Below, piece after piece: positions 2,382 through 17,936 of a stretch of 64,000 nucleotides of DNA. Position numbers and translations under genes: made by a program. Location of the stretch: positions 62,001-126,000 of the forward strand of contig JAMLGM010000006.1 of assembly GCA_023957975.1 (NCBI GenBank), given 5' to 3'. The notes below the pieces were generated by a model. The model was given only the letters and a program-made list of their open reading frames with translations. It made no database searches and was not told the DNA's origin. Position 1 is the first letter of the stretch; every line of letters begins with the position of its first letter. This stretch comes from Microthrixaceae bacterium (lineage in GTDB: Bacteria > Actinomycetota > Acidimicrobiia > Acidimicrobiales > Microtrichaceae).

Positions 2382-2692
2382 CGACGTGAGCGCGGGTCGC
2401 TCTCCCGCACGAAGAAAGACGTCGCAGCTTTCAACACCTCGATCGTTTCTTCGAGCTCACGGTTCTTGCGTTTCAACTCGCGGATCTCTGCGGCGGCTTC
2501 GCTGGTCACGCCTGGCCGTTCACCACCATCGACCTGTGCTTGACGAACCCAGTTCCGCAACGTTTCGGCATGCATCCCCAAACGGGTAGCGACTGCTTTG
2601 ATCGCTTGCCATTCCGACGGGTACTCCCCGACGTGATCGGTCACCAACCGGACCGCTTTCGCTTTCGTTTCCGAATCGAATCTTTTCGGCAT
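2378..2692 (-). CDS. IS3 transposase OrfA (helix-turn-helix subunit)
   Basis: This 104-residue protein starts at MPKRFDSETKAKAVRLV. It has a homeodomain-like HTH (AIKAVATRLGMHAETLRNWVRQ, roughly residues 30-52) and a C-terminal leucine-zipper coiled coil (EIRELKRKNRELEETIEVLK) used for multimerisation. It ends SDPRSRR just where the OrfB frame opens. A likely ribosome-binding site (AGAAAGGA-type purine tract) lies before the ATG; an upstream ATG at 2728 would add 12 residues inside the terminal region and is less likely. It binds the IS ends and contributes the N-terminus of the frameshifted OrfAB. Confidence 0.88.
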   Translation of the reverse strand: MPKRFDSETKAKAVRLVTDHVGEYPSEWQAIKAVATRLGMHAETLRNWVRQAQVDGGERPGVTSEAAAEIRELKRKNRELEETIEVLKAATSFFVRESDPRSRR

Positions 2693-2959
2693 AACACTCA
2701 ACCTTCCAAGAAAGGAGAAGTGCATCAAACCCGGGACGGTTCAAGAGTCTGTTCTCGCGAGGAGATGCGCCGCTCAACGACGACGAGGTGTCCGCCGTAC
2801 TCCAGGGTTCCGGCGCTCGAACGATCGACCACATGATGACCTACTCGGTCGCCGGCACCCCGCAGGTCTGCGTCGAGTATCTACGTCGATTCGCCGATCT
2901 CGCACATGCGGACGAGCTGATGGTCGTGCACCAGACCAACTCGGTAGCCACCCGGATTC

Positions 2960-3283
2960 GCTCGGTCGAGTTGCTCGCCGAGGCGGCCGGCCTCGACGCA
3001 CCCACCGCAGCCGACGACGCGACCGCTACCGCTACCGCTACCCAGGACTGAAACACCGTCCAGGACGCAAACTACGGCCGGTAGCGACAACTGCCCCGGT
3101 CGATCACCGTCGTCTCACCCACGCGAGTGCGAAATACAGCGGCACCGTCGCCCACTCGCCAGATGTCGACGCTCAACGTCTGACCGGGCAGCGCCCTGCT
3201 GGCGAACCCATACGTGCACAGACCGCGCAGGATTAGACGATCGAAGCCACCGAATGCCGCGAAGGTCGGATTGAAATGCAGCA
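2960..3283. repeat. Left copy of duplicated luc/maoC junction
   Basis: This segment carries the last about 90 bp of the flavin oxidoreductase gene and the 3' end of a MaoC-type gene on the other strand. It matches 5972-6353 in the same orientation with scattered differences: an (ACCGCT)3 run and CAGGACTGA in this copy only, and a deletion of about 70 bp corresponding to 6192-6262. The two copies bracket the lower-GC island at 3284-5971. Confidence 0.85.
3072..3283 (-). pseudogene. Remnant of MaoC-family hydratase 3' end
   Basis: The minus strand here matches the C-terminal coding sequence of the intact MaoC gene ending at 6072, including the same stop. It is only about 210 bp long, lacks everything upstream of the second hot-dog motif, and has an internal deletion of about 70 bp that joins the HGLCTYGFAG region to the PGQTLSVDIWRVGDG region. 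It cannot encode a functional protein. It is a by-product of the duplication that frames the 3284-5971 island. Confidence 0.85.
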
Positions 3284-3329
3284 GAGACGCGGACGACAGA
3301 GATGTCAGCCATCCCGCAGACAGTCAAAG

Positions 3330-4016
3330 TTAGATGGCCTCGGATCCGTCCAGGAAACGGCGTAGTTCAGGTTCAACAGCACTCCATGCTTCACGCCAAA
3401 TAGCGAAAAGGTGAACATCCTCGAATGTATTTCCTTCCCTAATCTGATGCCTCATTCTCCCCTCGCGCTGGACAACAGATTCAGGCATAGGTCCGAACTG
3501 AGACAGGTCTCGGTCTCGGACTTGCAGGGTCACCTTTCGGAGATCGAGAACCGTGAAGAGGAATGATAGATATAGTATAGCGGCCTCGATTGAGAGGCCG
3601 GTATCACGAGAAAGGGACCGGCGAAGGGAATAGAACGACATTTCACCAACGCCGTTCCGCTCCGAGTGAGCCGTCAAGGCCAGCAACGTAACCGCACTAC
3701 CGCTAACCGTCTCCTCCGCCACCACAAACCCAGCGACCTGGTTCGTGATATCAGCAATCACCTCCGCCGGATGGATGTACTGACCCGCGGTTGGCAACCG
3801 CCATCCCGTATCCGGGCTGTTCACCAGATCAAGAATTAGCTCCGCATCAGCCATCCTCGGCGCACGCAACCTCACCCGGCCTGATCGAAGACCTCCTTGT
3901 GCATGCGCCTCGCTCAACGAGCCGAGTTCACTGCGTGATAGATAGAATCGATCCACTGCAGAAAGAGGCGAGCTGCCGCCATCATTGGCCTTGGATACAG
4001 CACGCGCTCGATCCAT
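3330..4016 (-). CDS. GNAT-family acetyltransferase (RimJ/RimL-like)
   Basis: Using the ATG at 4016 gives 228 residues. This start has a GGGAGG-type ribosome-binding site directly upstream and lies 19 nt after the preceding gene; earlier starts would overlap that gene. Around residues 45-60 is the strand GRVRLRAPRMADAELILDLV typical of Acetyltransf_3 proteins. The C-terminal half has LDLRKVTLQVRD and EGRMRHQIREGNTFEDVHLFAIWREAW, the usual end of RimL-like N-acetyltransferases. The acetyl-CoA loop is poorly conserved, so activity is uncertain. It is the last gene of the four-gene island cassette and the only one predicted to be cytoplasmic. A protein or small-molecule acetyl acceptor is possible. 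Confidence 0.6.
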   Translation of the reverse strand: MDRARAVSKANDGGSSPLSAVDRFYLSRSELGSLSEAHAQGGLRSGRVRLRAPRMADAELILDLVNSPDTGWRLPTAGQYIHPAEVIADITNQVAGFVVAEETVSGSAVTLLALTAHSERNGVGEMSFYSLRRSLSRDTGLSIEAAILYLSFLFTVLDLRKVTLQVRDRDLSQFGPMPESVVQREGRMRHQIREGNTFEDVHLFAIWREAWSAVEPELRRFLDGSEAI

Positions 4017-4035
4017 TCCCTCCCGAACCACGTCC

Positions 4036-4677
4036 TCACCCAAAGAAAGCACCATTGTTCTTACGGATAAAGTACAGTCGAACGCCAGAACAGGTGTCAT
4101 ATGACATCATCGCGTTCGGCTGATTAGCGTCTTCCGACATTGCTCTTGACTCATTCCAAAGACTATTGACTGAACTCATCTGGTCATTGGTCACCAAGTC
4201 CCAGTTCGATGGTTTGTTCGCACCGTACTGATTGTTGCATATGTCCATTCTCTCATTGCGATTTGCTAAATCAGGGCCTGGTGGATTGCTCGACGTGACC
4301 GGCTGCTCATGTGCCAAAGTCATAAGAAACACCCACCCCCTATCCTTAGTAGTTACCGCGGCTCGCGCATTCCAGGACGCGTGCATGAACGCGTTGTCCC
4401 TACTACCGTCCATCGGCCAACCATCCTCTGCCGGCAGGCGGCCAGGACGAGTCAGTGCATCTTCCTTCGCTGCGGTCGATGAGGCGTAAGTAAGTAGGCA
4501 TTTCGTCGTCGAAGTAGCACACACGGCAACTTCGTAAGTATTCACTACGCCACTAAGCGGATAGGCCGCCGCTTCAGGTGTGCCCAGCGTCGGGAATACA
4601 GCCGCCACGGTGGCCGCAACTGCCGTCGCTTTGATACCATTATTGGCACGTCTCATTGGTCTGCTATTCTTGCTCAC
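4036..4677 (-). CDS. Secreted protein with a DUF6973-like core
   Basis: This is a 213-residue protein with a GTG start preceded by AGGAGG, overlapping the upstream lipoprotein stop by 4 nt. Residues 1-38 form an export signal: a basic start (MSKNSRPMRRANNGIK), a hydrophobic stretch (ATAVAATVAAVFPTLG) and an AAAYP cleavage region. The middle contains DNAFMHASWNARAA followed by a helix ending LAHE, resembling the DUF6973 pattern (a conserved His-x-x-Trp-Asn helix) found in small secreted proteins and polymorphic-toxin contexts. Several cysteines (CATSTTKC, DICNNQ, DTCSG) could form disulfides outside the cell. The function is not known; the domain assignment is by eye. Confidence 0.6.
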   Translation of the reverse strand: MSKNSRPMRRANNGIKATAVAATVAAVFPTLGTPEAAAYPLSGVVNTYEVAVCATSTTKCLLTYASSTAAKEDALTRPGRLPAEDGWPMDGSRDNAFMHASWNARAAVTTKDRGWVFLMTLAHEQPVTSSNPPGPDLANRNERMDICNNQYGANKPSNWDLVTNDQMSSVNSLWNESRAMSEDANQPNAMMSYDTCSGVRLYFIRKNNGAFFG

Positions 4678-5438
4678 GGATTCACCTCCTGGACCGTGAT
4701 CGACGCGACGGCATCAGCTGCCGTGCATTCAGCCGAAGTTGTCAATGAGACTGAGATCCTACTATCTGCAGTCGGCACCCACGAGATGGTTCGGAATCCC
4801 TTGGACGGATTTTGCGAAACCCATACACGCCCACCATCAGCCCCAACGTCATTAATAACCTCCACCCTTTCAGACATTACTTCTGATTTCAGTATCGCTG
4901 GCTCCCCTTTAGATGCCAGAAAGAGTGAAACGGCGGAAGGTACATCGCAGAATATAACTGGCTCGGAATAGATGGGCGTCCAGATGACATCAAATAGTTC
5001 CGACGGAGCAGGGACCGGAATCCCAGAGGCCGCGACCTGTCGACCACCCTCATCAAGGAACCGAGACATTGTCTCAACGCCAACCCCGAAGCTCTTCGCC
5101 ATCGTTTCAAGGGCTTCTTCGTCAGTCGGCAACCCATTTGCTATCTGCTCCAAGCTCTGCGCACGCCATAGACCAAAGGATTCGACCGCGATATCGACGC
5201 GCTGATCATCTGACAGATCCTTGATGCTCGCTCTATCTCGATATACAGGAAGGAGCACGACGCCATCTTCGATCATGTCGACTATTGCATCTTCACGGAC
5301 TTCCTCCGTTGCCAACGCCACCTCAGCAGCCTTTTCGGAAGCTAGCCCTGGTGAGTGGCGGGCCTCTCCGCACCCCGCTCCCAATATCACCAGAAAAGGT
5401 ACGAGAACATAGCCACTTGTAGTCTTCTGAATACCCAT
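4674..5438 (-). CDS. Predicted lipoprotein, island cassette
   Basis: This 254-residue protein has a type II signal peptide: MGIQKTTSGY, then a hydrophobic core, then the lipobox LGAGC at about residues 19-23, so it should be membrane-anchored outside the cell. An AAGGGGG ribosome-binding site precedes the ATG. The mature protein has an acidic helical N-terminal half and a C-terminal half rich in beta strands; no family was recognised. It overlaps the next secreted protein by 4 nt, so the two are probably made together, and a binding or anchoring partnership is possible. Confidence 0.65.
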   Translation of the reverse strand: MGIQKTTSGYVLVPFLVILGAGCGEARHSPGLASEKAAEVALATEEVREDAIVDMIEDGVVLLPVYRDRASIKDLSDDQRVDIAVESFGLWRAQSLEQIANGLPTDEEALETMAKSFGVGVETMSRFLDEGGRQVAASGIPVPAPSELFDVIWTPIYSEPVIFCDVPSAVSLFLASKGEPAILKSEVMSERVEVINDVGADGGRVWVSQNPSKGFRTISWVPTADSRISVSLTTSAECTAADAVASITVQEVNP

Positions 5439-5472
5439 CGATCCCCCTTCAGATTAGGATACTACCAGCGAA

Positions 5473-5853
5473 TCACTTCATTCGCAGCCGGCCGCGATAC
5501 CGACGACGGTAGAGTAGAGACAGCCCCGCTATCACGCACATCCCGAGGCCCAGCGCCACGAGCCAGACCGTCGCCGCCGGTGATGGACCTCGAACCTCGT
5601 CGAAGCCATGTACCGATTCCCTGAATGTGCAAGTCGGCCCAGGTGGCCACGCCGACCATCGGAGTTCACCGTACTGGGAACTTCCTTCAAATGGTTCACA
5701 GACTGTGGAACCAAGGATGCCAACGATCACAGTGTACGCGATTCCAACAAGAAACACCATGATCCAGATCCCCATTGCAATCAAAATAGCCACGCGGAGG
5801 CGCGAGCGATTCGATTCCTTGGGGCCTTGACGCGACAATCGGTCAGTGTTCAT
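5473..5853 (-). CDS. Small two-TM membrane protein, first gene of island cassette
   Basis: This 126-residue protein has TM helix 1 near residues 22-48 (VAILIAMGIWIMVFLVGIAY and onward), an external loop with two cysteines (VCEPF and PTCTF), and TM helix 2 near residues 92-114, ending in the basic tail YRRRYRGRLRMK. It is not a recognised family. It lies 34 nt upstream of the lipoprotein, and all four island genes run in the same direction. A TATACT box near 5962 (minus strand) could be part of the promoter, but this is weak. Confidence 0.6.
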   Translation of the reverse strand: MNTDRLSRQGPKESNRSRLRVAILIAMGIWIMVFLVGIAYTVIVGILGSTVCEPFEGSSQYGELRWSAWPPGPTCTFRESVHGFDEVRGPSPAATVWLVALGLGMCVIAGLSLLYRRRYRGRLRMK

Positions 5854-5971
5854 TCTTACAGTCGCCTTAGAAAGGGTTTCCGTCGCCGAATTGTGTTCAC
5901 AGCATCATTCTTGGTTGCGGATGAGTTCAGCATCAATGGTGAGCGACCGATTTCAATAGTATAGCGAACTT

Positions 5972-6353
5972 GCTCGGTCGAGTTGCTCACCGAGGCCGTC
6001 GGCCTCGGCACACCCACCGCGGCCGACGACGTAACCACCGTCCAGGCCTCAAACACCGTCCAGGACGCAGACTACGGCCGGTAGCGACAACTGCCCCGGT
6101 CGATCACCGTCGTCTCACCCACCCGAGTGCGAAACGCCGCGGCACCGTCGCCCACTCGCCAGATGTCGACGCTCAACGTCTGACCGGGCAGAACCGGCTT
6201 GGAGAATCGACCGTTCATCGACACGAACCGCGACGAATCCCCCTCGCACAACGACTGCAGCAGCGCCCGACCGGCGAACCCGTACGTGCACAGACCGTGC
6301 AGGATCGGACGATCGAAGCCACCGAAGGCCGCGAAGGTCGGATCGGAATGCAG
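5972..6353. repeat. Right copy of duplicated luc/maoC junction
   Basis: This copy contains a degenerate fragment of the flavin-oxidoreductase 3' end (from CTCGGTCGAGTTGCTC) and the intact 3' end of the MaoC gene. It is the direct-orientation partner of 2960-3283. The luciferase-like fragment lacks a start and is not expressed in frame with anything. Confidence 0.85.
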
Positions 6354-6974
6354 CGGATTGCGGTCACCGCAGAGTCGATAGAGCAACGCCTGATTCGCCA
6401 ACGTCTCGTATTCGACCGAGACGTCCGGGTCACGTTCGGGAATCGTCACTTCGGATGTCGATTCCGCGCCACTCCCTGAGGAGCCAGCGGAAGCACCGGC
6501 AGTACCGGCACCGGCCTCTTCGGCGAACCCGCCTTCGCCACGGATGAACGCCCCGGTCAACGCGGTGAAGGCCGGCTCCTCCGACTCGATATCGGTTGCC
6601 ACCGCCTCGATACGCACCAACGCTCCCGACCGCTTGTCCACGATGTCGGCGAGACGTCCCACCACCGAGACCGCGCCGCTCGGCGACAAGGGCCGATGCA
6701 ATTCGATCGACTGCTCGGCATGGACGAGCATCGCCGGGTTGAAGGCGCCGATGTTGCCCAACACGTCCATCCCCGAGATGCTGTGCACCACGGCGAAGGT
6801 CGGCAGCGCCTGTGGCTCGACCCCGGTCGTGTTCTCGGTCGTGAACGCCAACTCCTGCAATGGATCGGGGTACCCCGCGCCGACCGCCAGTGCGTAGAGC
6901 ATGGTGTCGTCCGCGCTCCACCGCACCTCGACCGGCCGGCCGACCGACCCGATCGATTCAAGATTCAACGCCAT
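6072..6974 (-). CDS. Double hot-dog MaoC-family enoyl-CoA hydratase
   Basis: This 300-residue protein has an N-terminal non-catalytic hot-dog domain, a low-complexity Gly/Ala/Ser linker (about residues 152-172), and a C-terminal hydratase-2 domain. The C-terminal domain carries the motif YRLCGDRNPLHSDPTFA followed by GFDRPILHGLCTYGFAG, with the catalytic Asp and His of R-specific enoyl-CoA hydratases. The layout matches peroxisomal-type hydratase-2 and mycobacterial ChsH/Hsd4B-like enzymes that hydrate long-chain or steroid enoyl-CoAs. It lies 85 nt downstream of the FadD19-like ligase on the same strand, so activation and hydration of one substrate is a reasonable inference. A truncated second copy lies at 3072-3283. 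Confidence 0.88.
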   Translation of the reverse strand: MALNLESIGSVGRPVEVRWSADDTMLYALAVGAGYPDPLQELAFTTENTTGVEPQALPTFAVVHSISGMDVLGNIGAFNPAMLVHAEQSIELHRPLSPSGAVSVVGRLADIVDKRSGALVRIEAVATDIESEEPAFTALTGAFIRGEGGFAEEAGAGTAGASAGSSGSGAESTSEVTIPERDPDVSVEYETLANQALLYRLCGDRNPLHSDPTFAAFGGFDRPILHGLCTYGFAGRALLQSLCEGDSSRFVSMNGRFSKPVLPGQTLSVDIWRVGDGAAAFRTRVGETTVIDRGSCRYRP

Positions 6975-7059
6975 AGCGGGCTCCTTTGTCTTTGGTCACT
7001 GCATTCGTTGGGACAGCGATCGTTGCGGCTGCGTTCGTCGGAACCACCGCCGCCGGGCC

Positions 7060-8727
7060 TCACTCCTCGGGGGCCTCGGCAGCGGTCGATGCCGCCCAGC
7101 GATAGTCGGCCTTGCCCGCGGGCGAGCGCAGGACCCGATCGACGAACACCCAGGCGCGGGGCAACTTGTAGCGGGCGATGTGTTCGGCCGCGGTCGCCTT
7201 CAGGTCAGCGATCTCGGCCGTCTTACCGTCGGCCATCTGGACGATGGCACACACCTCGGACCCCCAACGCTGCGACGGACGCCCCACCACCACGGCGTCG
7301 GCAACGTCGGGGTGGGCCACGATCGCCGCCTCGACCTCCTCGACGAAGATCTTCTCGCCCCCGGAGTTGATGGTCTGAGAGTCGCGCCCGAGGAGTTCGA
7401 ACGATCCGTCGGCCAAGTACCGGGCGCGATCGCCGGGCACCGAATAGCGCACACCGTCGATGACCGGGAAGGTGCGTGCCGTCTTCTCCGCGTCGTCGAA
7501 ATAGCCGAGCGGGGCACTGCCGCGTTTGGCCAGCCAGCCGATGCCCTCATGTCCGGGCTCCAAGACCTCGGTGAGATCCGCGGATACCACCATCGATCCC
7601 GCGACGGGGGCGAAGGTCGCCGGTTCGGCCGAGGAGTCCTTCGTCGTCATCGACGTTCCTTGGCCACCGCCCTCCGAACTACCGAGTCCGTCGACGATCA
7701 TGAGGTTCGGCAAGACCTCGAAGTAGCGCTGCTTGATCGGCTGGGTCAGCGCGGCACCACCGGACAACAGGATGAACAGCGAACTGACGTCGTGGTTGCC
7801 GCGTTCGATCTCTTCGAGGATGGGCCGACCGAAGGCGTCACCCACGATCTGGAGGAACTGGATCCCCTCGCGCTCGACGCACTCGCAGATGTCGACCGGA
7901 TCGAGACGTTCGACCACGTTTTGCACGACGATCGTCGAGCCGGTGTTCAAGCCAAGGAAGGCAATCCAGTGGCCCGCACCGTGCATGAACGGCGCGGCGG
8001 GCATCGACACGAGCGAGTTCGCCTCTGCCGCTCCGGCGACCTCGTCGAGGGTCTCCCACGGCTCCCCCGTCGCCTGGTTCAGTCCACCCATCGACGACCG
8101 GAAGATGTCGGCTTGACGCCACAGCACACCCTTGGGCATTCCGGTCGTGCCACCGGTGTAGAGGATGTACAGGTCATCGGGCGACCACTCGCCGGCCCAC
8201 GAGGGCAACTCGTCGGAAGCCGCGGCGAGCGCCTCCTCGTACCAGAGCGCACCCGGCAGCAACTCGTTACCCGAGTCATCGGCGATCTGGAGGAGCAACG
8301 TCAGTTCCGGAAGGTCGTCGCGGACCTCGGCGAGGGTCGGGGCAAAGGCCGAGTGATACACGATCGCCTTCGACTTGGAGTTGTCGAGCAGATACCGCAA
8401 CTCTTCGGCCACGTAGCGATAGTTCACGTTGACCGGAGCGACGCGGGCCTTGAAGGCCCCGATCATCGCCTCCAGGTACTCGTTGCCGTTGTAGGCGTAG
8501 ATGGCGAGGTGGTCCTGGTGGGACTCATGAGAGGCGAGACCCTCACGACCACCCGGTCGAGCACCGAGCCCATGATCGTGCAGGACGTGTGCCAATTGAC
8601 GGGTGCGCCGATTGAGCTCGTCGTAGGTGAATCGGTGCCCCTTCGCCACGATGGCCGTTCGATCCGGCACCCGTTGCGCCACCGCTTCGGCTACCGCCGC
8701 GAGGTTGTGTTGTGGCACGTCGTTCAT
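7060..8727 (-). CDS. FadD19-like acyl/steroid-CoA ligase
   Basis: This 555-residue AMP-forming ligase has an ATG at 8727 preceded by AGGGGG; the frame is open further upstream but without coding character. Core motifs are LYILYTGGTTGMPKGVLW (P-loop), GLGSSEGGG (A5), YSVPGDRARY (A7), LGRDSQTINSGGEKIFVEEVE (A8) and a C-terminal SPAGKADYRW with the adenylation lysine. Sequence order and end closely resemble FadD19-type steroid-24-oyl-CoA synthetases. One oddity is the segment around residues 52-72 (GARPGGREGLASHESHQDH), where orthologs have a shorter, different loop. It sits with the MaoC hydratase and opposite lysX. Confidence 0.87.
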   Translation of the reverse strand: MNDVPQHNLAAVAEAVAQRVPDRTAIVAKGHRFTYDELNRRTRQLAHVLHDHGLGARPGGREGLASHESHQDHLAIYAYNGNEYLEAMIGAFKARVAPVNVNYRYVAEELRYLLDNSKSKAIVYHSAFAPTLAEVRDDLPELTLLLQIADDSGNELLPGALWYEEALAAASDELPSWAGEWSPDDLYILYTGGTTGMPKGVLWRQADIFRSSMGGLNQATGEPWETLDEVAGAAEANSLVSMPAAPFMHGAGHWIAFLGLNTGSTIVVQNVVERLDPVDICECVEREGIQFLQIVGDAFGRPILEEIERGNHDVSSLFILLSGGAALTQPIKQRYFEVLPNLMIVDGLGSSEGGGQGTSMTTKDSSAEPATFAPVAGSMVVSADLTEVLEPGHEGIGWLAKRGSAPLGYFDDAEKTARTFPVIDGVRYSVPGDRARYLADGSFELLGRDSQTINSGGEKIFVEEVEAAIVAHPDVADAVVVGRPSQRWGSEVCAIVQMADGKTAEIADLKATAAEHIARYKLPRAWVFVDRVLRSPAGKADYRWAASTAAEAPEE

Positions 8728-8971
8728 CGATCCCCCTGTGATCACAAATCGGTCGGCCCGGCGGCCGCAAGGTCGACGATGCGACCCGAATGGTGTCGAC
8801 ATGATGGCACTTGTCGCGGCTTGGATGTCGAACGCGAGCAGTACGATTCGACCTGCGATGCCAAGCGCTCGAACACCCCACACGACGAGTCGACCCGGGC
8901 GAGCCCGAGCATCCTCGACGGCGACCGGCGCCCCGGCGGTTCCGTCATGGGGCCGACCGATCGTCACCTGG

Positions 8972-11900
8972 ATGGGTCGCATCGTGGTCCTCGCCGGGCT
9001 CTGGTGCATCATCGCCGTGCCGCTCTCGCTGCCGTCCTCCGGCGTCGCTCCCGCGTTGGTCGACTGGGTGAACCGGGGCTTCGGCCTGCTCAACATCCCG
9101 ACCGACGCCAACTTGTTCACCGGGGCGATGCTCGGGTCGATCGGCAGCGCGCTGGTCGTTCGCAAACGCGCCGCGCTGTGGTTCGTCGCCGTCGGATTCC
9201 AGGGTGGCTGGTTGCTCGCCGCCCTGGCGGTCACCGTGTTGAGAACCGCGGAGGTCGGCGCCGTTCCCAAAGTCCTGCTCGACACCCCTGTCGAAGTCGT
9301 GCTGTTTGCGATCGAGACCGTCGTGGCCGTCGTGTTGCTGTGGGTGTTCTGGAGGGTACGGGGAGCGTTCACGGCGCGCGTCGCCCCACGGGCATTGCGA
9401 CGATCCGTGCTCGCCCTCCTCGTCGGCATCGCCATCTCCGCCGGCATCGGCATCGTGTTGTCGGAACTGGCACCCGGGTCGCTGCACGACCGGTTCGTTC
9501 GCGCCGAATGGGCGATTCGCACCGCGTTCGGCCTCGGCGCCGACCCCGACATCGAATTGATCCGCGGCACCGGCGACCCGTGGGTTGCCACCGCCATCGG
9601 GGCCATGTCGACAGCAGCACTGGTGTACGCGGGCTGGGTGTTTCTGCGCTCGTCGCGGCTCACCGACTTCGTCGACACCGACGACGAGATCGCCGTGCGG
9701 ACGCTGCTGGCCGACTACGGGGAGAACGATTCGCTCGGGTACTTCGCGACACGTCGCGACAAGGCCGTGGTGTTCTCCTCCGACCGTCGCGCCGCGGTGA
9801 CCTATTGCGTCGAAGCCGGCGCGAGTCTGGCGTCCGCCGACCCGATCGGCGACGAGGCGTCCTGGCCCTCGGCCATCGAACAATGGCGACGGGTCGCCGG
9901 GCACCACGGCTGGGAACCGGCGGTGCTCTCCGCATCGAGTCGCGGCGCCGAGGCCTATCGTCGCGCCGGGCTCCGGGTGCTCTCGATCGGCGACGAAGCA
10001 GTCATCGAGGTGTCGGCCTTCGACATTGACGCCGCGGCGTTGCGCCCGGTGAAGCGCGCCGCCGCACGAATCGAGCGCGCCGGGTACCACATCGACCGAC
10101 GCACCCATGCCGACCTCGATGCCGACGACCTACGGAGCCTCGCCGATGCCGCCGAACGCTGGCGCGGTGACGAACCCGAGCGCGGGTTTTCGATGGCCCT
10201 CGGCCGTTTGGGCGACCCGGCGGATGGTCGATGCGTGGTCGTGCGGGCGACCGACGCGACCGGTGACTTGCGGGCGTTTCTCTCGTTCGTGCCGTGGGGG
10301 CGACGCGGGTTGTCCCTCGACCTCATGCGTCGCGACCCCGACGCCGACAACGGTGTGATCGAGGCGATGGTGTGCTCCCTCGTCGACACCGCTCGCCATG
10401 TCGGAATCGACCGAATCTCGCTGAACTTCGCCATGTTTCGCGAGGTGTTCAGCGACAGCGAACGCATCGGCGCCGGTCCCGTCGTGCGGATGACCGCATC
10501 ACTGCTCACTGCGGCATCGAGGTGGTGGCAGTTGGAAACGTTGTATCGATCCAGCGCCAAGTACCAGCCTCGCTGGGAGCCACGCTTCCTGTGTTTCAGC
10601 GAGCCGCTGCAGCTCAATCGTGCCTTGTTGGCCTCGGGAATCGCCGAAGGGTTCATCGCTCTGCCGGGTCGATCGTCCCGGGCGATGCCGCAGCCCGCGT
10701 CAAGTCCGGCGCTCGTGGCGGCCGCCGCAGAGTTGGCTCAGCGGCGTCCGCGCCGGGTCGATCGTCGGCTGCCACCCCAGGCCGAGAGCCGACTCTCCAA
10801 GGCGGCACAACTCAGCGCCGTCGGGTTGGCCCCCTATGCCACCTCGGTGCCCTGGCGACACCCGATCGCCGAGGTTCGGGAACGATTCGTCCACCTCAGC
10901 GACGGAGGGGTGTCAGCCTGGGAGGTGACGGTTGCCGGGCGAATCACCGCACTGCGCAAGATGGGGAAGGCATGCTTCGCGGTCGTCGACGACGGCGAAG
11001 CCTCGATAGGGCTCCTCCTCGCCAGCGATCGCCTCGACGACGCGTTCGGCGACTGGACCCGTTTCGTCGACCTCGGCGATCTCGTCGTGGCCACCGGTCC
11101 GGTCGTCTTCACACGCACCGGCGAGATGACGATCGCGGTCGACCGGTGGTCGATGGTCGCCAAGTGCGTCACCCCACCCGACCCATCCGCTCCCGGCGAC
11201 CCAGGACGCCGGCGACCCGACGGCGGCCCTGTAGGCGGCCTTGTCGAAGGGCTTGTCGCCAGCGCCGCGGTCACGCGTCGACTGTGCGCCTCGCTCGAAT
11301 CTCAGGAGTTCGTTCGCTACGAGGTGAGCGATGCCGAGGACTGGGAATGGACACTGCGATCGTTGAGCGCCCTCGGGGTGCCGCGTTTCTACACGGTCCT
11401 CCACGGCGATGACACACAAGGCGGTCATCCAGAAGGACCTCATGCAGAAGGACGTCGTGGGGAGCGTGCCCGCTCTCGCGATGCCGACGCTCGCGGTACC
11501 AATGCACCCGGAGCCGATTCCCAGGGAGCCGATTCCCAAGGAGCCGATGCGCTGGAGGTGGTCGCAGCCGCGCCCTACGTGGGGACCGAGGCCATCCGCA
11601 CCATCGTCGAAGAGGTCATCGTGCATGTCGCCGACGTCGATCTCCGCGAAGCGACATGGCTGGCCGACGGAGGTGACATCGACAGCGGCGCTGTCGGAGG
11701 TGACATCGGCGGTCCTATCCGAACAGCGGTCGATCGCTTCGACCTGGTTGTCGACGGTCAGCGGCTCGCGACGGTCGAGGCCATCATCACCGATCCGGTC
11801 GAACAGTCCGGCCGCGCCGAGTCGGATGCGTCGGTCGACCGGCTCGTCGAGGTGCTCGAACGCGGTGTCCCGCCAACCTCCACGTTGCGTATAAGCGTCG

Positions 11901-12019
11901 GCGCGCTGATGCGCGCGGAACGAGACGACGGCGGATCGCGAGACGAGCGAGGCGAACGTGAATTGCTAGACGAACGAGACGAGGGCGGAGCGCGATCAGG
12001 CGGGCAGGACCCGCTGTAG
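8972..12019 (+). CDS. lysX: LysX/MprF-like lysyl-phosphatidylglycerol synthase with degenerate LysRS domain
   Basis: The protein is about 1,015 residues from the ATG at 8972; in-frame ATGs at 8801 and 8827 would add up to 57 residues, and no start has a clear ribosome-binding site. An N-terminal block of about five TM helices leads into the DUF2156 transferase domain (DSLGYFATRRDKAVVFSS, GASLASADPIGD, ERGFSMALGRLGDPADG, LSLDLMRR, then SRWWQLETLYRSSAKYQPRW), nearly motif-for-motif mycobacterial LysX. The C-terminal part begins as a LysRS OB-fold (VAGRITALRKMGKACFAV) and ends with FDLVVDGQRLATVEAIITDP and ERGVPPTSTL. The class II catalytic core between (motif 1, and the motif 2 FRNEG block) is missing and replaced by a Gly/Ala/Asp-rich stretch with an exact 15-bp repeat (11510-11548). 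Lysyl transfer to lipid is likely; tRNA charging is not. Confidence 0.85.
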   Translation: MGRIVVLAGLWCIIAVPLSLPSSGVAPALVDWVNRGFGLLNIPTDANLFTGAMLGSIGSALVVRKRAALWFVAVGFQGGWLLAALAVTVLRTAEVGAVPKVLLDTPVEVVLFAIETVVAVVLLWVFWRVRGAFTARVAPRALRRSVLALLVGIAISAGIGIVLSELAPGSLHDRFVRAEWAIRTAFGLGADPDIELIRGTGDPWVATAIGAMSTAALVYAGWVFLRSSRLTDFVDTDDEIAVRTLLADYGENDSLGYFATRRDKAVVFSSDRRAAVTYCVEAGASLASADPIGDEASWPSAIEQWRRVAGHHGWEPAVLSASSRGAEAYRRAGLRVLSIGDEAVIEVSAFDIDAAALRPVKRAAARIERAGYHIDRRTHADLDADDLRSLADAAERWRGDEPERGFSMALGRLGDPADGRCVVVRATDATGDLRAFLSFVPWGRRGLSLDLMRRDPDADNGVIEAMVCSLVDTARHVGIDRISLNFAMFREVFSDSERIGAGPVVRMTASLLTAASRWWQLETLYRSSAKYQPRWEPRFLCFSEPLQLNRALLASGIAEGFIALPGRSSRAMPQPASSPALVAAAAELAQRRPRRVDRRLPPQAESRLSKAAQLSAVGLAPYATSVPWRHPIAEVRERFVHLSDGGVSAWEVTVAGRITALRKMGKACFAVVDDGEASIGLLLASDRLDDAFGDWTRFVDLGDLVVATGPVVFTRTGEMTIAVDRWSMVAKCVTPPDPSAPGDPGRRRPDGGPVGGLVEGLVASAAVTRRLCASLESQEFVRYEVSDAEDWEWTLRSLSALGVPRFYTVLHGDDTQGGHPEGPHAEGRRGERARSRDADARGTNAPGADSQGADSQGADALEVVAAAPYVGTEAIRTIVEEVIVHVADVDLREATWLADGGDIDSGAVGGDIGGPIRTAVDRFDLVVDGQRLATVEAIITDPVEQSGRAESDASVDRLVEVLERGVPPTSTLRISVGALMRAERDDGGSRDERGERELLDERDEGGARSGGQDPL

Positions 12020-12916
12020 GAACTCGAGCTGCGCGGTGATGGTTTCGACGAAGGCGTCACCGGTATAGATGTCGAAATGGCCGCCGCCGAATCGATACAC
12101 CTCACCGAGTGGTGCCTGGCCGGCGTACTTGATGGCGGCGCCCGGCGGTGCCACCGAGTCGTCCATGCACACGTACATGAGCAACGGACAGCGCGTGTCA
12201 CGAGCGAGTCGTCCCGGGCGATAGTTCGTCACCTTCAACGCGATGCGCGCCGGGATCATGTTGCGATGCGTCGTCCCTTCGGGAACGATCGACGCGTACC
12301 CATCGGCGACATCGGCGGCCGTCATCATCGCGAGGTCACCGGGGCGTCCGGCAACCGCGACACGCACCGGTTCCCCACCACGTTTGGCCGAGCGGGCATC
12401 GGCGATCGCCTTGCGCATCAGTGTCAGCGCACCACTGCGATCCGAGGACCTCGCCGAGGCGACACCGTCGGTGAACGGGCATTGGGCGATCACCGCGGCG
12501 ATGCGGCGGTCCTGCGCCGCGGTCGCCACGACATGGCCTCCGGCAAACGACGTGCCCCACAACGCCACACGGTCGGGGTCGACCTCGAATTGCGAGCGGG
12601 CGAACGACACCGCAGCGCGCCAATCGGCGAGTTGGGCGTCGATGTCCAACAGTTCTCGTGGCTCGCCCTCGCTGTCGCCGAAGTAGCGGTAGTCGAAGAC
12701 CAACACGGCATAGCCCGCGGCACAGAACGCCTCGGCATAGGCGTCGAGGCGCATCACCTTGGTCGCTGCGAAGCCGTGTGCCATGACGACCGTCGCGAAA
12801 CCCGAGGCCGGCATCTCGCGGTCGGGGACATAGAGCCACGCATGGCAACGATCCGGCCCCGACCAGAACCACACGTCGCGTCGAGAGGTGGCCTGCGCGG
12901 TGTGAACGGTTGTCAT
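11996..12916 (-). CDS. Alpha/beta hydrolase (S15/dienelactone-hydrolase-like)
   Basis: This 306-residue protein has the oxyanion motif VVMAHGFAATK, the nucleophile elbow LWGTSFAGGH (Ser around residue 122), an acid candidate in MYVCMDDSVAPP, and the catalytic His in GGGHFDIYTG near the end. These fit the X-Pro dipeptidyl-peptidase/acetyl-esterase-like hydrolases used on esters or acyl groups. It starts 6 nt after the stop of the flavoprotein gene at 12923, so the two are co-transcribed. The 3' end overlaps the convergent lysX gene by 24 nt. Confidence 0.85.
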   Translation of the reverse strand: MTTVHTAQATSRRDVWFWSGPDRCHAWLYVPDREMPASGFATVVMAHGFAATKVMRLDAYAEAFCAAGYAVLVFDYRYFGDSEGEPRELLDIDAQLADWRAAVSFARSQFEVDPDRVALWGTSFAGGHVVATAAQDRRIAAVIAQCPFTDGVASARSSDRSGALTLMRKAIADARSAKRGGEPVRVAVAGRPGDLAMMTAADVADGYASIVPEGTTHRNMIPARIALKVTNYRPGRLARDTRCPLLMYVCMDDSVAPPGAAIKYAGQAPLGEVYRFGGGHFDIYTGDAFVETITAQLEFLQRVLPA

Positions 12917-12922
12917 CTGGCC

Positions 12923-14056
12923 TCAGCTTTCGGCGAGTCGGTTGAGTCGTTCGAGCGTCTCGACGAACTCCTCGATCATCTCCAACACGACCCGCTTGGT
13001 GGGCTTCACCTGGTTCATCGACCCGACGATCTGCCCGACGAAGTAGGTCGTGAGGTCATAGGCGCCCGTGCCTGGCTTGGCCGAGCGCCCGATGCGGGCG
13101 AGCGCCGAGCCGACGAGCATGGGTTGCAGCGGCATCGGCAGCGGTCCGGGACCCGAGTCGTCCTCCCAGGCCTCGGTCCACGGGCTGCGCAGCATCCGCG
13201 CCGGCTTGCCGGTGATCGACCGAGACCGGACCGTATCGCCAAGACCCGCCTGGAGATACTTCTCCTTGATGGTGTCGGTGGTCTCGGCCTCCTCGGTGGT
13301 GAGCCAGACCGACCCGCACCATGCACCGTCGGCCCCGAGTGCCATTCCGGCTGCGAGTTGACGGCCTCGGCCGATGCCACCGGCGGCAAGCACCGCCACG
13401 TCACCCACCGCATCGACGACCTCGGGGACGAGCACCATCGTGGCGATTTCGCCCGTATGACCGCCCGCCTCACCACCTTGAGCGACGATGATGTCGGCGC
13501 CTGCGGCGACATGGCGTTCGGCGTGGTGCACCGAACCGGCGAGCGCGGCGACCGGGATGTCGGCGGCATGCGCACGTTCGATGAAGTGGGCCGGGGGCGG
13601 GCCGAGCGCCGAGGCCACGAGCTTGGTCTTGTGCGAGAACAACACGTCGAGCAGTGGGGCCATCGACTTCGGATCGACCCGCATGCCGCCGATCGACACC
13701 GACGCCTGCGAACTCGTCCCCTCCGGCAGTTGCGGGACCCCGTAGCGGTCGAGAAGGTCGTCGAGCCAGGACCGATGGGCCTCGGGGATGAGGTCCTGAA
13801 GCCTGCCGCGGTCGAGGCCGCCCTCGTCGGCCCCGGCGAACTTCTCGGGAACCAGCAGGTCGACGCCGAACGGCTTGGTGCCGACCTCGTTCTCGATCCA
13901 GGTCAGGTCGATGTCGAGCTGCTTCGGCGAGTGTCCGACGGCGCCGAGCACCCCGCAACCACCGGCATTGGTGACCGCCGCTACGACGTCGCGGCAATGA
14001 CTGAATGCAAAGATCGGAACGTCGATTCCGACGAGTTCGGTGGCCTTGGTACGCAT
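12923..14056 (-). CDS. NAD(P)H-dependent flavin oxidoreductase, nitronate-monooxygenase family
   Basis: This 377-residue TIM-barrel flavoprotein starts at MRTKATELVGIDVPIF with a GGGGAGAA ribosome-binding site. FMN-binding motifs are present: AAVTNAGGCGVLGAVG near the N-terminus, AAGADIIVAQGGEAGGHTG, and LAAGGIGRGRQLAAGMALGADGAWCGS. Members oxidise nitronates or reduce CoA-linked intermediates; IpdC-type proteins of steroid ring degradation belong to the same superfamily, which fits the neighbourhood, but the exact substrate cannot be read from sequence. It is coupled to the hydrolase at 11996-12916 and divergent from the enoyl-CoA hydratase at 14232. Confidence 0.85.
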   Translation of the reverse strand: MRTKATELVGIDVPIFAFSHCRDVVAAVTNAGGCGVLGAVGHSPKQLDIDLTWIENEVGTKPFGVDLLVPEKFAGADEGGLDRGRLQDLIPEAHRSWLDDLLDRYGVPQLPEGTSSQASVSIGGMRVDPKSMAPLLDVLFSHKTKLVASALGPPPAHFIERAHAADIPVAALAGSVHHAERHVAAGADIIVAQGGEAGGHTGEIATMVLVPEVVDAVGDVAVLAAGGIGRGRQLAAGMALGADGAWCGSVWLTTEEAETTDTIKEKYLQAGLGDTVRSRSITGKPARMLRSPWTEAWEDDSGPGPLPMPLQPMLVGSALARIGRSAKPGTGAYDLTTYFVGQIVGSMNQVKPTKRVVLEMIEEFVETLERLNRLAES

Positions 14057-14165
14057 GTGGTGTTCTCCCCGATAACGACACTGATGGGTCGCAGTCTCGC
14101 GGCTCATGGTCGGTGGGCGCACCTCTCGACGAACGACGCATAGGCTCGCTCGCGGTGCGCCCCGC

Positions 14166-14215
14166 AGAGGGCCACGCCAACGGGCCACGCCAGAGGGCCA
14201 CGCCAATGGGTCGCA
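14166..14215. repeat. Short tandem repeats upstream of enoyl-CoA hydratase
   Basis: Three or four degenerate 12-14-bp units built on GGGCCACGCCA lie in the divergent spacer between 14056 and 14232. They occupy the leader of the plus-strand gene. No regulator motif was recognised; replication slippage is the simplest origin. Confidence 0.6.
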
Positions 14216-14231
14216 CCGTGAGGGAGGTCGG

Positions 14232-15044
14232 GTGCCGGAAGGTTTCGAGACGAACCAGTTCGAGACGGTCCGGGTGGAGGTCGCCGATCAGGTCGCCGTG
14301 CTGACGATGAGTCGTCCGCAGGCTCGCAACGCGTTGAACTCGCGGCTGACCCGCGAACTGTGGCTGGCCGTCGAGGAGGTCGCCGGTTCCGATGAGGTGG
14401 ACGCCATCGTGTTGACCGGTGCCGATCCGGCGTTCTGCGCCGGGCTCGACCTTCGAGAACTCGCCTCTGGGACGGCGTTTCGCGACGAGGAACCCGACCC
14501 GCGGCCGCCCGGGCTGCCGATGCGCTTCTTTCCCGTCGTCGACAAGCCGATCATCGCTGCGGTCAACGGACCGGCGATCACCGGCGGGTTCGAGGTGGCG
14601 CTGCAATGCACGTTCATCATCGCTTCCGAACGAGCCCGTTTCGCCGACACCCATGCCCGGGTCGGCATCTTGCCCGGGGCGGGACTCACCGCGTTGCTGA
14701 CCGAGGCCGTCGGCGTCCGACGGGCCACCGAACTGTCCCTCACCGGCAACTTCCTCGACGCACAAACCGCCTATGAATTGGGGCTCGTCAACCGGGTCGT
14801 CCCTCACGACGAGCTGATGGCTACGGCGCGTGCGACGGCCGCCGACATCGTGAGCAACGACCAGCGAGCCGTTCGGGCGCTCGTCGCGCACTACCGGGGT
14901 CTGCAGGACCAGGCGACCTTGTCGGATCGGTTCGCGCTCGAAGCCTCGCTCCACCACGACTTCGGTGGGCTCGCCAATCCAGCGGACCGGGTGAACGGCG
15001 TCATCGAGCGAGGTCGAACCCAACAACGAATCGCAACTCCCTAA
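14232..15044 (+). CDS. Enoyl-CoA hydratase/isomerase (crotonase family)
   Basis: This 270-residue protein has a GTG start preceded by GGGAGG. Crotonase landmarks include LTMSRPQARNALNSRLT, the first oxyanion loop DPAFCAGLDLREL, the second oxyanion loop AAVNGPAITGGFEVALQC, and ARVGILPGAG, where the catalytic Glu of bona fide hydratases would sit next to a glycine. No Glu occupies the usual first catalytic position (the TGG segment), so isomerase or hydrolase activity is possible. It is followed after 15 nt by a hot-dog thioesterase, probably one transcription unit. Confidence 0.85.
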   Translation: MPEGFETNQFETVRVEVADQVAVLTMSRPQARNALNSRLTRELWLAVEEVAGSDEVDAIVLTGADPAFCAGLDLRELASGTAFRDEEPDPRPPGLPMRFFPVVDKPIIAAVNGPAITGGFEVALQCTFIIASERARFADTHARVGILPGAGLTALLTEAVGVRRATELSLTGNFLDAQTAYELGLVNRVVPHDELMATARATAADIVSNDQRAVRALVAHYRGLQDQATLSDRFALEASLHHDFGGLANPADRVNGVIERGRTQQRIATP

Positions 15045-15059
15045 CCGACTGGAGACACC

Positions 15060-15461
15060 ATGACCGACGAACTACTCACCGCGATGGGCGAATTCGGCTT
15101 CAACGAGGCCCTCGGGATGGAGTTCCTCGAGGCGTCCGGCGATCGGGTCGTCGCCACCGTCGAGATCGGCCCGCAGCATCATCAGCCCTACGGCATCACC
15201 CACGGCGGCGTGTGGTGCTCGGTCATCGAAACCTGCGCAAGTGTCGGCGGCGCCATGTGGTACGGATCGCAGGGTCAGGTCGTCGGCGTGTCGAACCACA
15301 CCGACTTCCTCAAAGCCGTCCGCGACGGCGTGGTGACCGCCACGGCGACACCAATCCATCGAGGCCGGTTGCAACAGTTGTGGCTGGTCGAGATCCGCAC
15401 TGATGACGATCGGCTCGTCGCCCGCGGGCAGGTACGCCTGCAAAATCTCCCCGCCTCCTGA
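15060..15461 (+). CDS. PaaI-type hot-dog acyl-CoA thioesterase
   Basis: This 133-residue single hot-dog domain has the PaaI/4-hydroxybenzoyl-CoA thioesterase signature HHQPYGITHGGVWCSVIET (His-Gly-Gly and the following catalytic acidic position) and GVSNHTDFLKAV. It likely hydrolyses dead-end or product acyl-CoA thioesters from the adjoining degradation steps. A GGAGACACC leader precedes the ATG. A long palindrome begins 3 nt after the stop and probably ends transcription. Confidence 0.85.
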   Translation: MTDELLTAMGEFGFNEALGMEFLEASGDRVVATVEIGPQHHQPYGITHGGVWCSVIETCASVGGAMWYGSQGQVVGVSNHTDFLKAVRDGVVTATATPIHRGRLQQLWLVEIRTDDDRLVARGQVRLQNLPAS

Positions 15462-15464
15462 CCG

Positions 15465-15514
15465 GTTCTCCGATAACCAGTGGTCGTGATCACGACCACT
15501 GGTTATCGGAGAAC
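15465..15514. terminator. Perfect 50-bp palindrome between convergent genes
   Basis: Two uninterrupted 25-bp arms (GTTCTCCGATAACCAGTGGT on the left, continuing CGTGA) meet at a central GTGATCAC with no loop. It lies between the stops of the thioesterase (15461) and the MaoC gene (15518) and could terminate both. There is no T-tract. The same 50 bp recur exactly at 19662-19711. Confidence 0.75.
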
Positions 15515-15517
15515 AGG

Positions 15518-16552
15518 TCAGCGTGGCATGAACGCCCAGAGGTCCAGATCGAGCAGCACGTTCGAGGCGTACTTACCGTCCTCACCCTTGAGTGTCATCG
15601 AAGTGTCGCGACCCTTTGTCGCCACCAGGCGCAGTCGAATGGCACCGACGCCAGGCGCCGAGGTGTCCGCCTTGTCGAGCACCTCGGACCATGCGTACAC
15701 GGTGTCATCGGCGAAGGCCGGATTGGTGTGGGCACCGGCGTTGATCGCGGCGATGAGTTGCGCGTTCGCCAAGCCGTTGTAGCTGAGCGCCCGAGCCATC
15801 GAGATGATGTGGCCGCCGTAGATGAGGCGGCGACCGTCGGGGCGGGCCTCGGTGTTGAAATGCACCTTGGCGGTGTTTTGCCACAGGCGAGTCGCCAACA
15901 TGTGTTCGGGGTCGGTGAGGGTCACGCCGTCGACGTGATCGATCTTCTCTCCGACCTCGTAGTCGTCGAAGCGGTGAGGTTCACCGGCCGCGGAGAAGTC
16001 GTACCTGGTGAAGTCGAGGCCGTCCGGGATCAGCAGGTCCTCGGGCGACACCGCCTTCGCCAACTCGGGCACGACGGTCTCGGGGGCCGCGGCGGAATGG
16101 TCGCGCTTGTTCACCATCACCCAACGCGCCCAGTCGATCGCCACCTCGCCGCGCTGATTCGTCGCCGTCGAACGCACATAGACCACACCGGTCTTGCCGT
16201 TGGAGTTCTCCTTGAGGCCGATGACCTCCGAACTCGAACGCAACGTGTCGCCCACCAGCACCGGGCGGTGGAACCGCAATTCCGCGTAGCCGAGGTTGGC
16301 GACGGCGTTCAGCGACACGTCCGGCACGGTCTTGCCGAAGGCGACGTGGAACCCGACGAGTTCCTCGACCGGATGCGCAGCGAGGCCGACCCCCGCAGCG
16401 AAGGTCGCCGCCGACGGCAGCGCGAATCGCGTCGGATACAGCGACGTGTACAGCGCGCGGTCACCCTCGGTGATGGTGCGGGGCACGGCGTGGTCGATGA
16501 CCTGCCCGAGAGTGAAGTCCTCGAAGAAGTTGCCCGGGTTCGTCTTGGTCAT
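15518..16552 (-). CDS. mch: Mesaconyl-CoA (2-methylfumaryl-CoA) hydratase, double MaoC
   Basis: This 344-residue protein starts KTNPGNFFEDFTLGQVIDHA, and much of its length follows the known mesaconyl-CoA hydratases: PRTITEGDRALYTSLYPTRF, VFGKTVPDVSLNAVANLGYA (here VAFGKTVPDV...), TGVVYVRSTATNQ, YEVGEKIDHVDGVTLTDPEHM, NTAKVHFNTEARPDGRRLIY and GGHIISMARALSYNGLANA. The family interconverts mesaconyl-CoA and beta-methylmalyl-CoA in the ethylmalonyl-CoA pathway or 3-hydroxypropionate bicycle, and also in C5-dicarboxylate assimilation. No crotonyl-CoA carboxylase/reductase or malyl-CoA lyase gene is in the window, so the pathway cannot be settled here. Confidence 0.88.
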   Translation of the reverse strand: MTKTNPGNFFEDFTLGQVIDHAVPRTITEGDRALYTSLYPTRFALPSAATFAAGVGLAAHPVEELVGFHVAFGKTVPDVSLNAVANLGYAELRFHRPVLVGDTLRSSSEVIGLKENSNGKTGVVYVRSTATNQRGEVAIDWARWVMVNKRDHSAAAPETVVPELAKAVSPEDLLIPDGLDFTRYDFSAAGEPHRFDDYEVGEKIDHVDGVTLTDPEHMLATRLWQNTAKVHFNTEARPDGRRLIYGGHIISMARALSYNGLANAQLIAAINAGAHTNPAFADDTVYAWSEVLDKADTSAPGVGAIRLRLVATKGRDTSMTLKGEDGKYASNVLLDLDLWAFMPR

Positions 16553-16601
16553 GAATCCTCGATCCGATCGGCGATGTCGGCCACGAGGATACAAACGGCG
16601 C

Positions 16602-17936
16602 CTATCTGCCCACCAACGCACGCCGGTCGGTGTAGCTCGCAGCATCGCTTCGATACTCGGCATGTCCGTAGTCGCGCAGGCGACGGTTGAGCCGACGAAC
16701 GATGTAGCGATCGATCGCCGGTTGCAGACGTGCCACGCCGTTGAGCCGCGACACGATCCGGTGCCGACCGAAGATGAACGGGGCGCCGAGTGCGACACGC
16801 ACTTTGTCGGCACCCGTCAACGACACACCCATTTCGGCCGCACGGTTGGCGTCGTTGCCGAGAAAGGCGCGAATGAAGAAGGCCGTCGAGAAGCTCCGCT
16901 CGAAGGACTCGGCGACGCGGCTCTTGAGCGTCGTGTCCGGGCGCAGATAGGCGGCGAGCGTCCCACGCACCAATTCGCCACAAGTGGAGTCGTCGTAGCC
17001 GCGGCGCAGGGTCGCGGCACGGGCGAGAAACACTCGCATCAGCCCTTCGGGGTCGTCGGGCAACAACACCTCGGGCAGGCCGAGCAGGTAACAGCGGTAC
17101 CGCGCCATCTCCACCATCGCCCGTTCGTCGTCGGTGTAGCCGCGTTTCGCATGAACCGCCTCGACCGCCATGAGAAAGGAAGTGATGAGCCCCGCCGGCA
17201 TCTGGTCGACCTGGGGAATCGGCACGCCATAGACCGACTGATCCCAGTTCCGCTCCGGGCGCAAGGCGTTGTATCGCACCATCGAGTGCATGAGACGCAC
17301 CATCGCGGCGGCCTCAAAGCCCGGACCATTGCGATCCATTCCACCCGGCAGCACCGTCGACGCGAAGAACGCTGCGGTCTCGTTGACGCGCTTGGCGGAA
17401 CGCTTGTCACTCAACGAACCCGTCACCGCCATCGGAAGCGCCGCATAGGAGTTCAAGAAGGTGGCGAGGAACGCCCCGCGAACCCCGAACGGGGCGAGCA
17501 GCGCGGCGGAGATTCGTTCCAGACGGGCGCCCTCTGCGACGAGTTCGAGGTCGATCCACGCCGGCACGGTCTCGAGTTCGGTGATGAAACGGCGCAGTTC
17601 GTCCGGAGGGTCCTCGACGTCGTCGATGCTGCCCTGGCACGCGGTGCGCAACATCGTGATGAGGCCGTGCATCCCATGGGTCGGAATCAGCGCGACATAG
17701 GCGTCGCACACCGCATCGCCGAGCATCGTCGCTGCGGCCATCAGATCCATGAGACCCTGGTCCGCCAAGAAGTCGGCCCGATTCACTCGCGGCACGGTGT
17801 CGAGCTCGGTCTCGTCCTCCGGTCGAAGCGCCAGCCGCTCCGGAATCGCGTTGAAGTCGAAAGCGCCGTACATCCCCGGCAAATCGATCCCCTGCCGCTC
17901 CACCCGGTCGCGAAGCTCCTCCAGTGCAACACCCAT
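16602..17936 (-). CDS. MpaB/DUF2236-family oxygenase
   Basis: This 444-residue protein starts at the ATG at 17936. The DUF2236 (MpaB-like, ER-bound oxygenase/latex-clearing-protein related) pattern is seen in FDFNAIPERLALRPEDE, GMHGLITMLRTACQGS and VRLMHSMVRYNALRPERNWD, with the conserved His of the heme-coordinating helix, plus PIPQVDQMPAGLITSFLMAVE and the C-terminal FGRHRIVSRLNGVARL. Relatives bind b-type heme and oxidise terpenoid side chains or cleave polyisoprene. It is monocistronic, 49 nt upstream of the mesaconyl-CoA hydratase, and divergent from the DUF808 gene. Confidence 0.8.
   Translation of the reverse strand: MGVALEELRDRVERQGIDLPGMYGAFDFNAIPERLALRPEDETELDTVPRVNRADFLADQGLMDLMAAATMLGDAVCDAYVALIPTHGMHGLITMLRTACQGSIDDVEDPPDELRRFITELETVPAWIDLELVAEGARLERISAALLAPFGVRGAFLATFLNSYAALPMAVTGSLSDKRSAKRVNETAAFFASTVLPGGMDRNGPGFEAAAMVRLMHSMVRYNALRPERNWDQSVYGVPIPQVDQMPAGLITSFLMAVEAVHAKRGYTDDERAMVEMARYRCYLLGLPEVLLPDDPEGLMRVFLARAATLRRGYDDSTCGELVRGTLAAYLRPDTTLKSRVAESFERSFSTAFFIRAFLGNDANRAAEMGVSLTGADKVRVALGAPFIFGRHRIVSRLNGVARLQPAIDRYIVRRLNRRLRDYGHAEYRSDAASYTDRRALVGR

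Follow-up and report, generated by a model that had tools for sequence, protein, structure and literature searches.

A LysX-derived protein from a Microthrixaceae bacterium that has lost the lysyl-tRNA synthetase motifs and keeps its transferase domain and OB fold

The LysX proteins of Mycobacterium tuberculosis and Corynebacterium pseudotuberculosis carry, in this order, a membrane region, a GNAT-like lysyl transferase, an OB fold and a lysyl-tRNA synthetase (LysRS), an active domain that provides charged tRNA to the lipid step. Without the LysRS half, the MprF half of M. tuberculosis LysX makes no lysyl-phosphatidylglycerol (lysyl-PG), although LysS is present, and the need for a dedicated LysRS was left unexplained (PMC2713425). 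In C. pseudotuberculosis no LysRS had to be added, since the LysRS domain itself provided the Lys-tRNA, and lysyl-diacylglycerol was the chief product (PMC10580965). A gene in the 64,000-nucleotide stretch of Microthrixaceae DNA analysed here (the window) shares the LysX order of domains, but the protein lacks the class II LysRS motifs. Does such a protein still work as a lipid transferase that merely holds its tRNA, or is its synthetase half decaying?

The open reading frame, at positions 8972-12019 of the forward strand, comprises 1015 codons and no internal stop, so that the frame is indeed open over its full length, as the first-pass annotation of this DNA had stated. Pfam searches place its domains in the order found in LysX (membrane region, LPG_synthase_C, OB fold), and the features are as follows, with GC1/2/3 giving the G+C content by codon position.

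8972..9640, forward strand: N-terminal membrane region, residues 1-223 (PF16995 tRNA-synt_2_TM, 2e-22)
9698..10597, forward strand: LPG_synthase_C / GNAT-like aminoacyl transferase domain, residues 243-542 (PF09924, 2.4e-84)
10778..11182, forward strand: OB-fold domain of the anticodon-binding type, residues 603-737 (PF01336 at residues 652-727, 5.6e-10; pLDDT ~95)
11009..11011, forward strand: codon of Gly680, which is Gln in all 29 aligned LysX and LysRS sequences (alignment)
11183..11242, forward strand: residues 738-757, a low-complexity linker that replaces the segment LPDKxxGLxDPExRxRxRYLDL (GC1/2/3 0.95/0.80/0.60, non-coding-like)
11243..11419, forward strand: remnant of the motif 1 helix and strand and the next segment, residues 758-816, with the motif 1 Pro and HGGANARPF deleted (alignment, composition, model)
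11420..11554, forward strand: low-complexity stretch with 15-bp tandem repeats in the place of the motif 2 loop, residues 817-861 (TRF)
11555..11641, forward strand: remnant helix PYxxxxxxxxIVEEVIVHVADV, residues 862-890 (GC1/2/3 0.79/0.34/0.86, coding-like; pLDDT ~70)
11642..11722, forward strand: repeat-containing linker, residues 891-917 (direct repeat 11663-11681/11690-11708)
11723..11911, forward strand: last strands and motif 3 remnant (DRFDLVVDGQRLATVEAIITDPVEQ ... PPTSTLRISVGA), residues 918-980, with the Mg/Lys-site Glu and the motif 3 Arg replaced (LysX profile, alignment)
11912..12019, forward strand: charged repetitive tail and stop; its last 24 nt overlap a convergent hydrolase gene ending at 11996

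The overlapping gene (11996-12916, reverse strand) encodes an alpha/beta hydrolase resembling UilS lactonase, and shares positions 11996-12019 with the charged tail. Further out, both flanks (6072-8733 and 12923-16813) carry genes of acyl-CoA metabolism, namely MaoC-like dehydratases, an acyl-CoA synthetase, a FabK/nitronate monooxygenase-like protein and an enoyl-CoA hydratase, among which the LysX gene stands alone.

The membrane part, the transferase domain and the OB fold resemble those of intact LysX. The membrane region is 25% identical to that of LysX, a normal value for this part. The PF09924 match covers model positions 1-298 of 298 with 283 bits, above the gathering score; the transferase domain keeps 116 of the 136 positions conserved in LysX and is 51-59% identical to that of intact LysX of the same type. 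As for the NCBIfam model of bifunctional LysX (NF002821), the whole protein scores 729 bits, below the curated cut-off of 742, and the alignment ends at model position 747 of 1102. The membrane region, the LPG_synthase_C domain and the OB-fold anticodon-binding domain expected of a bifunctional LysX are all there, while the class II LysRS core (motifs 1-3 and the lysine pocket) was looked for and is absent. Because that core is a defining feature, the sequence places the protein outside bifunctional LysX, as a member of the LPG synthase family derived from LysX.

The loss in the synthetase half is extensive. Residues 738-1015, searched alone, gave no Pfam match at E<=1, whereas PF00152 (tRNA-synt_2) is matched at 1.9e-79 by the corresponding part of an intact LysX (L033) and at 2.9e-87 by the other LysRS of the genome studied here. 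To compare motifs, we aligned the protein with 14 LysX and another 15 LysRS sequences; VETPxLQxxHGGANARPF, RIAPELYLK, FRNEG and HNPEFT all proved to have no counterpart in the 1015-residue protein; motif 3, GLGIGVDR in LysX, reads TLRISVGA, with loss of the catalytic Arg. Placed on the protein by mapping on the motifs, the lost residues include the counterparts of Gly216, Glu240, Arg262, Glu264, Asn271, Glu278, Tyr280, Glu421, Glu428 and Arg480 of E. coli LysU. The only stretch of the catalytic part still detected by a LysX profile is residues 918-980, at 10.9 bits. Slippage repeats occupy the gaps left by the lost motifs. Among them TRF reported two arrays of 15-bp units, one at 11425-11453 with 1.9 copies and one at 11510-11548 with 2.6 copies (95%); further repeats lie at 11193-11227, 11663-11708 and 11918-11995. 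These results bear out what the first-pass annotation had said of motif 1, the motif 2 loop and the lysine pocket, all of which are gone, and of the low-complexity stretch with 15-bp repeats. Its claim that the last strands are kept holds for the strands themselves and not for the catalytic Arg of motif 3. Since every class II motif has disappeared, LysRS catalysis must be lost, and the domain is, judging from these alignments, devoid of any aminoacylation chemistry. A hidden frameshift was considered and rejected, as a LysX catalytic profile run against all six frames gave signal in the annotated frame only; between 11402 and 11450 another frame has a better codon-usage score, yet it matches nothing.

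An AlphaFold model of the C-terminal 420 residues, built with 30 alignment rows, gave pLDDT values of ~95 for the OB fold, ~65-85 for the remnants and below 50 for the linkers, with a pTM of 0.48. The linkers between the remnant helices and strands are probably disordered. A full-length model built from 15 rows was of low quality (pTM 0.45, with even well-conserved parts of the transferase below 50), and its confidence in the remnant was left unused. The structures nearest to the C-terminal model are mycobacterial LysRS (5vl1; VIA Z 23, rmsd ~11 A): the individual parts superpose but are arranged differently relative to one another, so that the predicted relative placement of the domains is unreliable and the structural likeness to LysRS shows ancestry, not activity.

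The OB fold has fared differently from the catalytic part. As the earlier reading had it, the domain is retained, and of the columns that do not vary among the 29 relatives only one has changed, Gln680 having become Gly; this invariant Gln corresponds to Gln96 of E. coli LysRS, an anticodon contact. For a domain-by-domain baseline we took 375 intact LysX pairs whose transferases are 50-60% identical. The OB identity of the 1015-residue protein, 0.355, lies at the low end of normal (0.42 +/- 0.05 in these pairs), while the identity of its catalytic part is 0.231 against 0.59 (minimum 0.52) in the same pairs. Shared drift should have lowered both equally, and the OB fold, near normal beside a collapsed catalytic part, is therefore probably still under selection, as far as this comparison of rates can tell.

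The genome encodes exactly one other class II LysRS, at 90200-91591 of contig C1 (genome G000), with all its motifs intact; a search of the genome for a class I LysRS gave nothing. The housekeeping LysRS on which the first-pass annotation supposed the protein to rely is thus present. The same annotation had proposed looking for the shortened domain in relatives; it did not turn up in our samples of the family, order and class, and LysX of this type was found in no other genome of the family (33), of the 397 sampled in the order or of the 296 in the class. A search of contigs with the single 1015-residue protein gave nothing but one distant LysRS. In the tree of the transferase domain the protein sits among LysX with intact LysRS, adjoining family f68 (support 97/99 and 100/99), whose members are its nearest LysX by that domain (55-58% identity over it). 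The close match to mycobacterial LysX claimed earlier needs correction on this point, the nearest LysX by the transferase domain being those of f68 and not mycobacterial. Nesting among LysX with intact LysRS means that the ancestor had a working LysRS and that the loss is derived; transfer is the probable origin of the gene in this genome.

Class II searches had suggested that LysX is the only LysRS in some f68 genomes. This idea was dropped, as all 18 such genomes have a class I LysRS (PF01921; L116 and L117); the f68 genomes tested that have none (G198 and G1104) have a separate class II LysRS besides LysX. Within the family of the bacterium itself we observed permuted fusions, with a class II LysRS of intact motifs at the N-terminus and the membrane region and LPG synthase at the C-terminus (L059:1559-4921, L060:1570-4944 and L061:1946-7000). 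In two further genomes, LysRS-like and LPG synthase frames adjoin as separate, overlapping frames (L063 in G003, 2784-6387; L064 in G007, 1377-4758), and the LysRS-like protein of L063 has an odd motif 3, GYGHSERNF.

Given these results, we think it fairly likely that the protein is a LysX-derived, membrane-anchored aminoacyl-tRNA:lipid transferase that has lost its LysRS chemistry, is supplied with Lys-tRNA by the other LysRS and has retained the OB fold for docking or tethering of tRNA, the rest being remnant. The transferase, recognised here at the domain level, would take Lys-tRNA made by the cell's single other LysRS. The OB fold would, as its most likely role, dock or tether the tRNA at the membrane beside the transferase, and its anticodon specificity may be relaxed, the invariant Gln being Gly. 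What remains of the catalytic domain would be a small number of helices and strands, connected by linkers expanded by slippage. The product, by analogy with LysX, would be lysylated phosphatidylglycerol or diacylglycerol; given the main product in C. pseudotuberculosis, it may not be lysyl-PG.

The explanation that competes best with this one is plain decay, in which the LysRS half is no longer needed and its catalytic domain drifts neutrally, the OB fold surviving through a shorter period of drift or burial against the transferase, and no tRNA is docked. We consider it rather unlikely as an account of the whole protein, though several observations fit it: the slippage repeats, the non-coding-like GC of the linkers and the loss of the invariant OB Gln. 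The form is, moreover, known from one genome only, so that no direct dN/dS can be computed and fixation in a species group is not demonstrable. Hydrophobic-pattern retention looked at first like a sign of selection, with 0.81 against 0.53-0.59 on chosen segments, but the excess vanished once simulated decays were realigned, and over the whole remnant retention is 0.64 against 0.63-0.64 in neutral simulations realigned in the same way, with no excess. Against decay stand the near-normal divergence of the OB fold beside the collapsed catalytic part, and a frame free of stops for 278 codons and preserved through several length changes. In simulations, however, a neutral stretch of 168 codons with this G+C, diverged as far as is observed, escapes a stop in 5-15% of cases, and the open frame is accordingly weak evidence for selection. 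Composition adds a little more: the non-repeat catalytic segments have a GC of 0.74/0.48/0.78 at the three codon positions, and their GC3-GC2 of 0.30 compares with 0.28 in the transferase and 0.33 in the OB fold, the repeat linkers being non-coding-like. Neutral simulations at the observed divergence gave 0.15-0.20 (sd 0.05), or ~0.24 if started from an already diverged LysX, in which case the excess is small; the composition of the non-repeat remnant is thus modest evidence for selection. On balance the ~280 residues after the OB fold tilt towards a tolerated remnant. The earlier suggestion that this is not simple decay is accordingly upheld by the contrast between the OB fold and the catalytic part, and is doubtful for the catalytic remnant, for which one of two tests, that of the hydrophobic pattern, fits neutrality.

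Remodelling of the domain towards a new catalytic or ligand-binding function, instead of its emptying, is very improbable: three remnant segments have coding-like composition and moderate pLDDT, and the linkers could be tolerated insertions, but residues 738-1015 have no Pfam match, the ATP, Mg and amino-acid sites are all gone and the remnant model is weak (pTM 0.48). Least credible of all is a sequencing or assembly artefact hiding an intact domain behind an erroneous low-complexity stretch, since, although the assembly has 28 contigs, only one copy is available and repeats are error-prone, the loss extends over ~280 codons by substitutions and length changes with a stop-free frame kept, and coding-like segments alternate with the repeats.

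A parallel to the proposed loss of LysRS chemistry comes from another lineage. In a first sample of the phylum the active site was altered in one LysX, L047 of genome G109, and a search of 148 genomes of its genus (g104) revealed the same altered LysX in at least 16 species (L066-L081). Here FRNEG has become FRNTR, FRNTH or FRNAR, HNPEFT has become xLPEF/Y, and HGGANATPF has become PGTGTARSM or PGGAAARSL-like, in frames that are open throughout. Close pairs show a catalytic-domain omega of 0.05-0.20, equal to or below that of the transferase domain; by this measure the altered site is under purifying selection. Most g104 proteins keep equivalents of Glu240, Glu278, Glu428 and the motif 3 Arg, which makes "impaired or re-specified" a safer description than "dead". 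In each of the six g104 genomes tested there is a separate LysRS gene whose frame is of normal length; three genomes (G714, G787 and G829) encode a second LysX-length relative, 47-48% identical. The g104 proteins thus resemble the 1015-residue protein in having lost conserved residues of the LysRS active site in a genome that also has an ordinary LysRS gene, and differ from it in keeping a full-length LysRS fold and the motif 3 Arg. The two do not group closely in the tree, so that erosion of the LysRS site arose at least twice. Together with the rates in the OB fold, this parallel speaks for the earlier proposal of a selected, tRNA-binding-only version; the part of it that concerns binding of tRNA-Lys fits poorly with a Gly in place of the invariant anticodon-contact Gln. 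More tentatively still, LysX may repeatedly have been turned into a "pseudo-synthetase" lipid transferase, whose LysRS half served as a tRNA-docking module after the loss of catalysis, reduced here to an OB fold whose anticodon readout has changed, and arising independently in the 16 or more g104 species.

Among known systems, MprF and the standalone LPG synthases (PF09924; for example MprF of Staphylococcus aureus, and Streptomyces-like proteins of 578-625 residues, L045, L046, L052 and L053) are similar in that the protein described here would likewise use Lys-tRNA from the housekeeping LysRS. They have, in contrast, no OB fold or LysRS remnant, and in a broader tree the standalone synthases branch outside the clade formed by LysX and the 1015-residue protein. 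The stand-alone tRNA-binding proteins Trbp111 and Arc1p offer a functional analogy, since their OB fold binds tRNA without aminoacylation (PMC11286949), although it belongs to another OB family and is joined to no membrane transferase. The literature searched, in which few subscription papers were covered, contained no account of LysX proteins whose LysRS is non-catalytic or degenerate.

The inactivity of the M. tuberculosis MprF half without its LysRS half suggests that a LysX lacking LysRS activity might be inactive here too. That construct, however, is described as yielding the MprF domain only, presumably also without the OB fold, and so does not decide between catalysis and docking. With a natural LysX that has lost catalysis and kept the OB fold, the making of Lys-tRNA on the spot can be told apart from the holding of tRNA close to the transferase. 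The question of why M. tuberculosis LysX needs a dedicated LysRS thereby becomes directly testable, and the g104 clade provides a second, graded case in many species.
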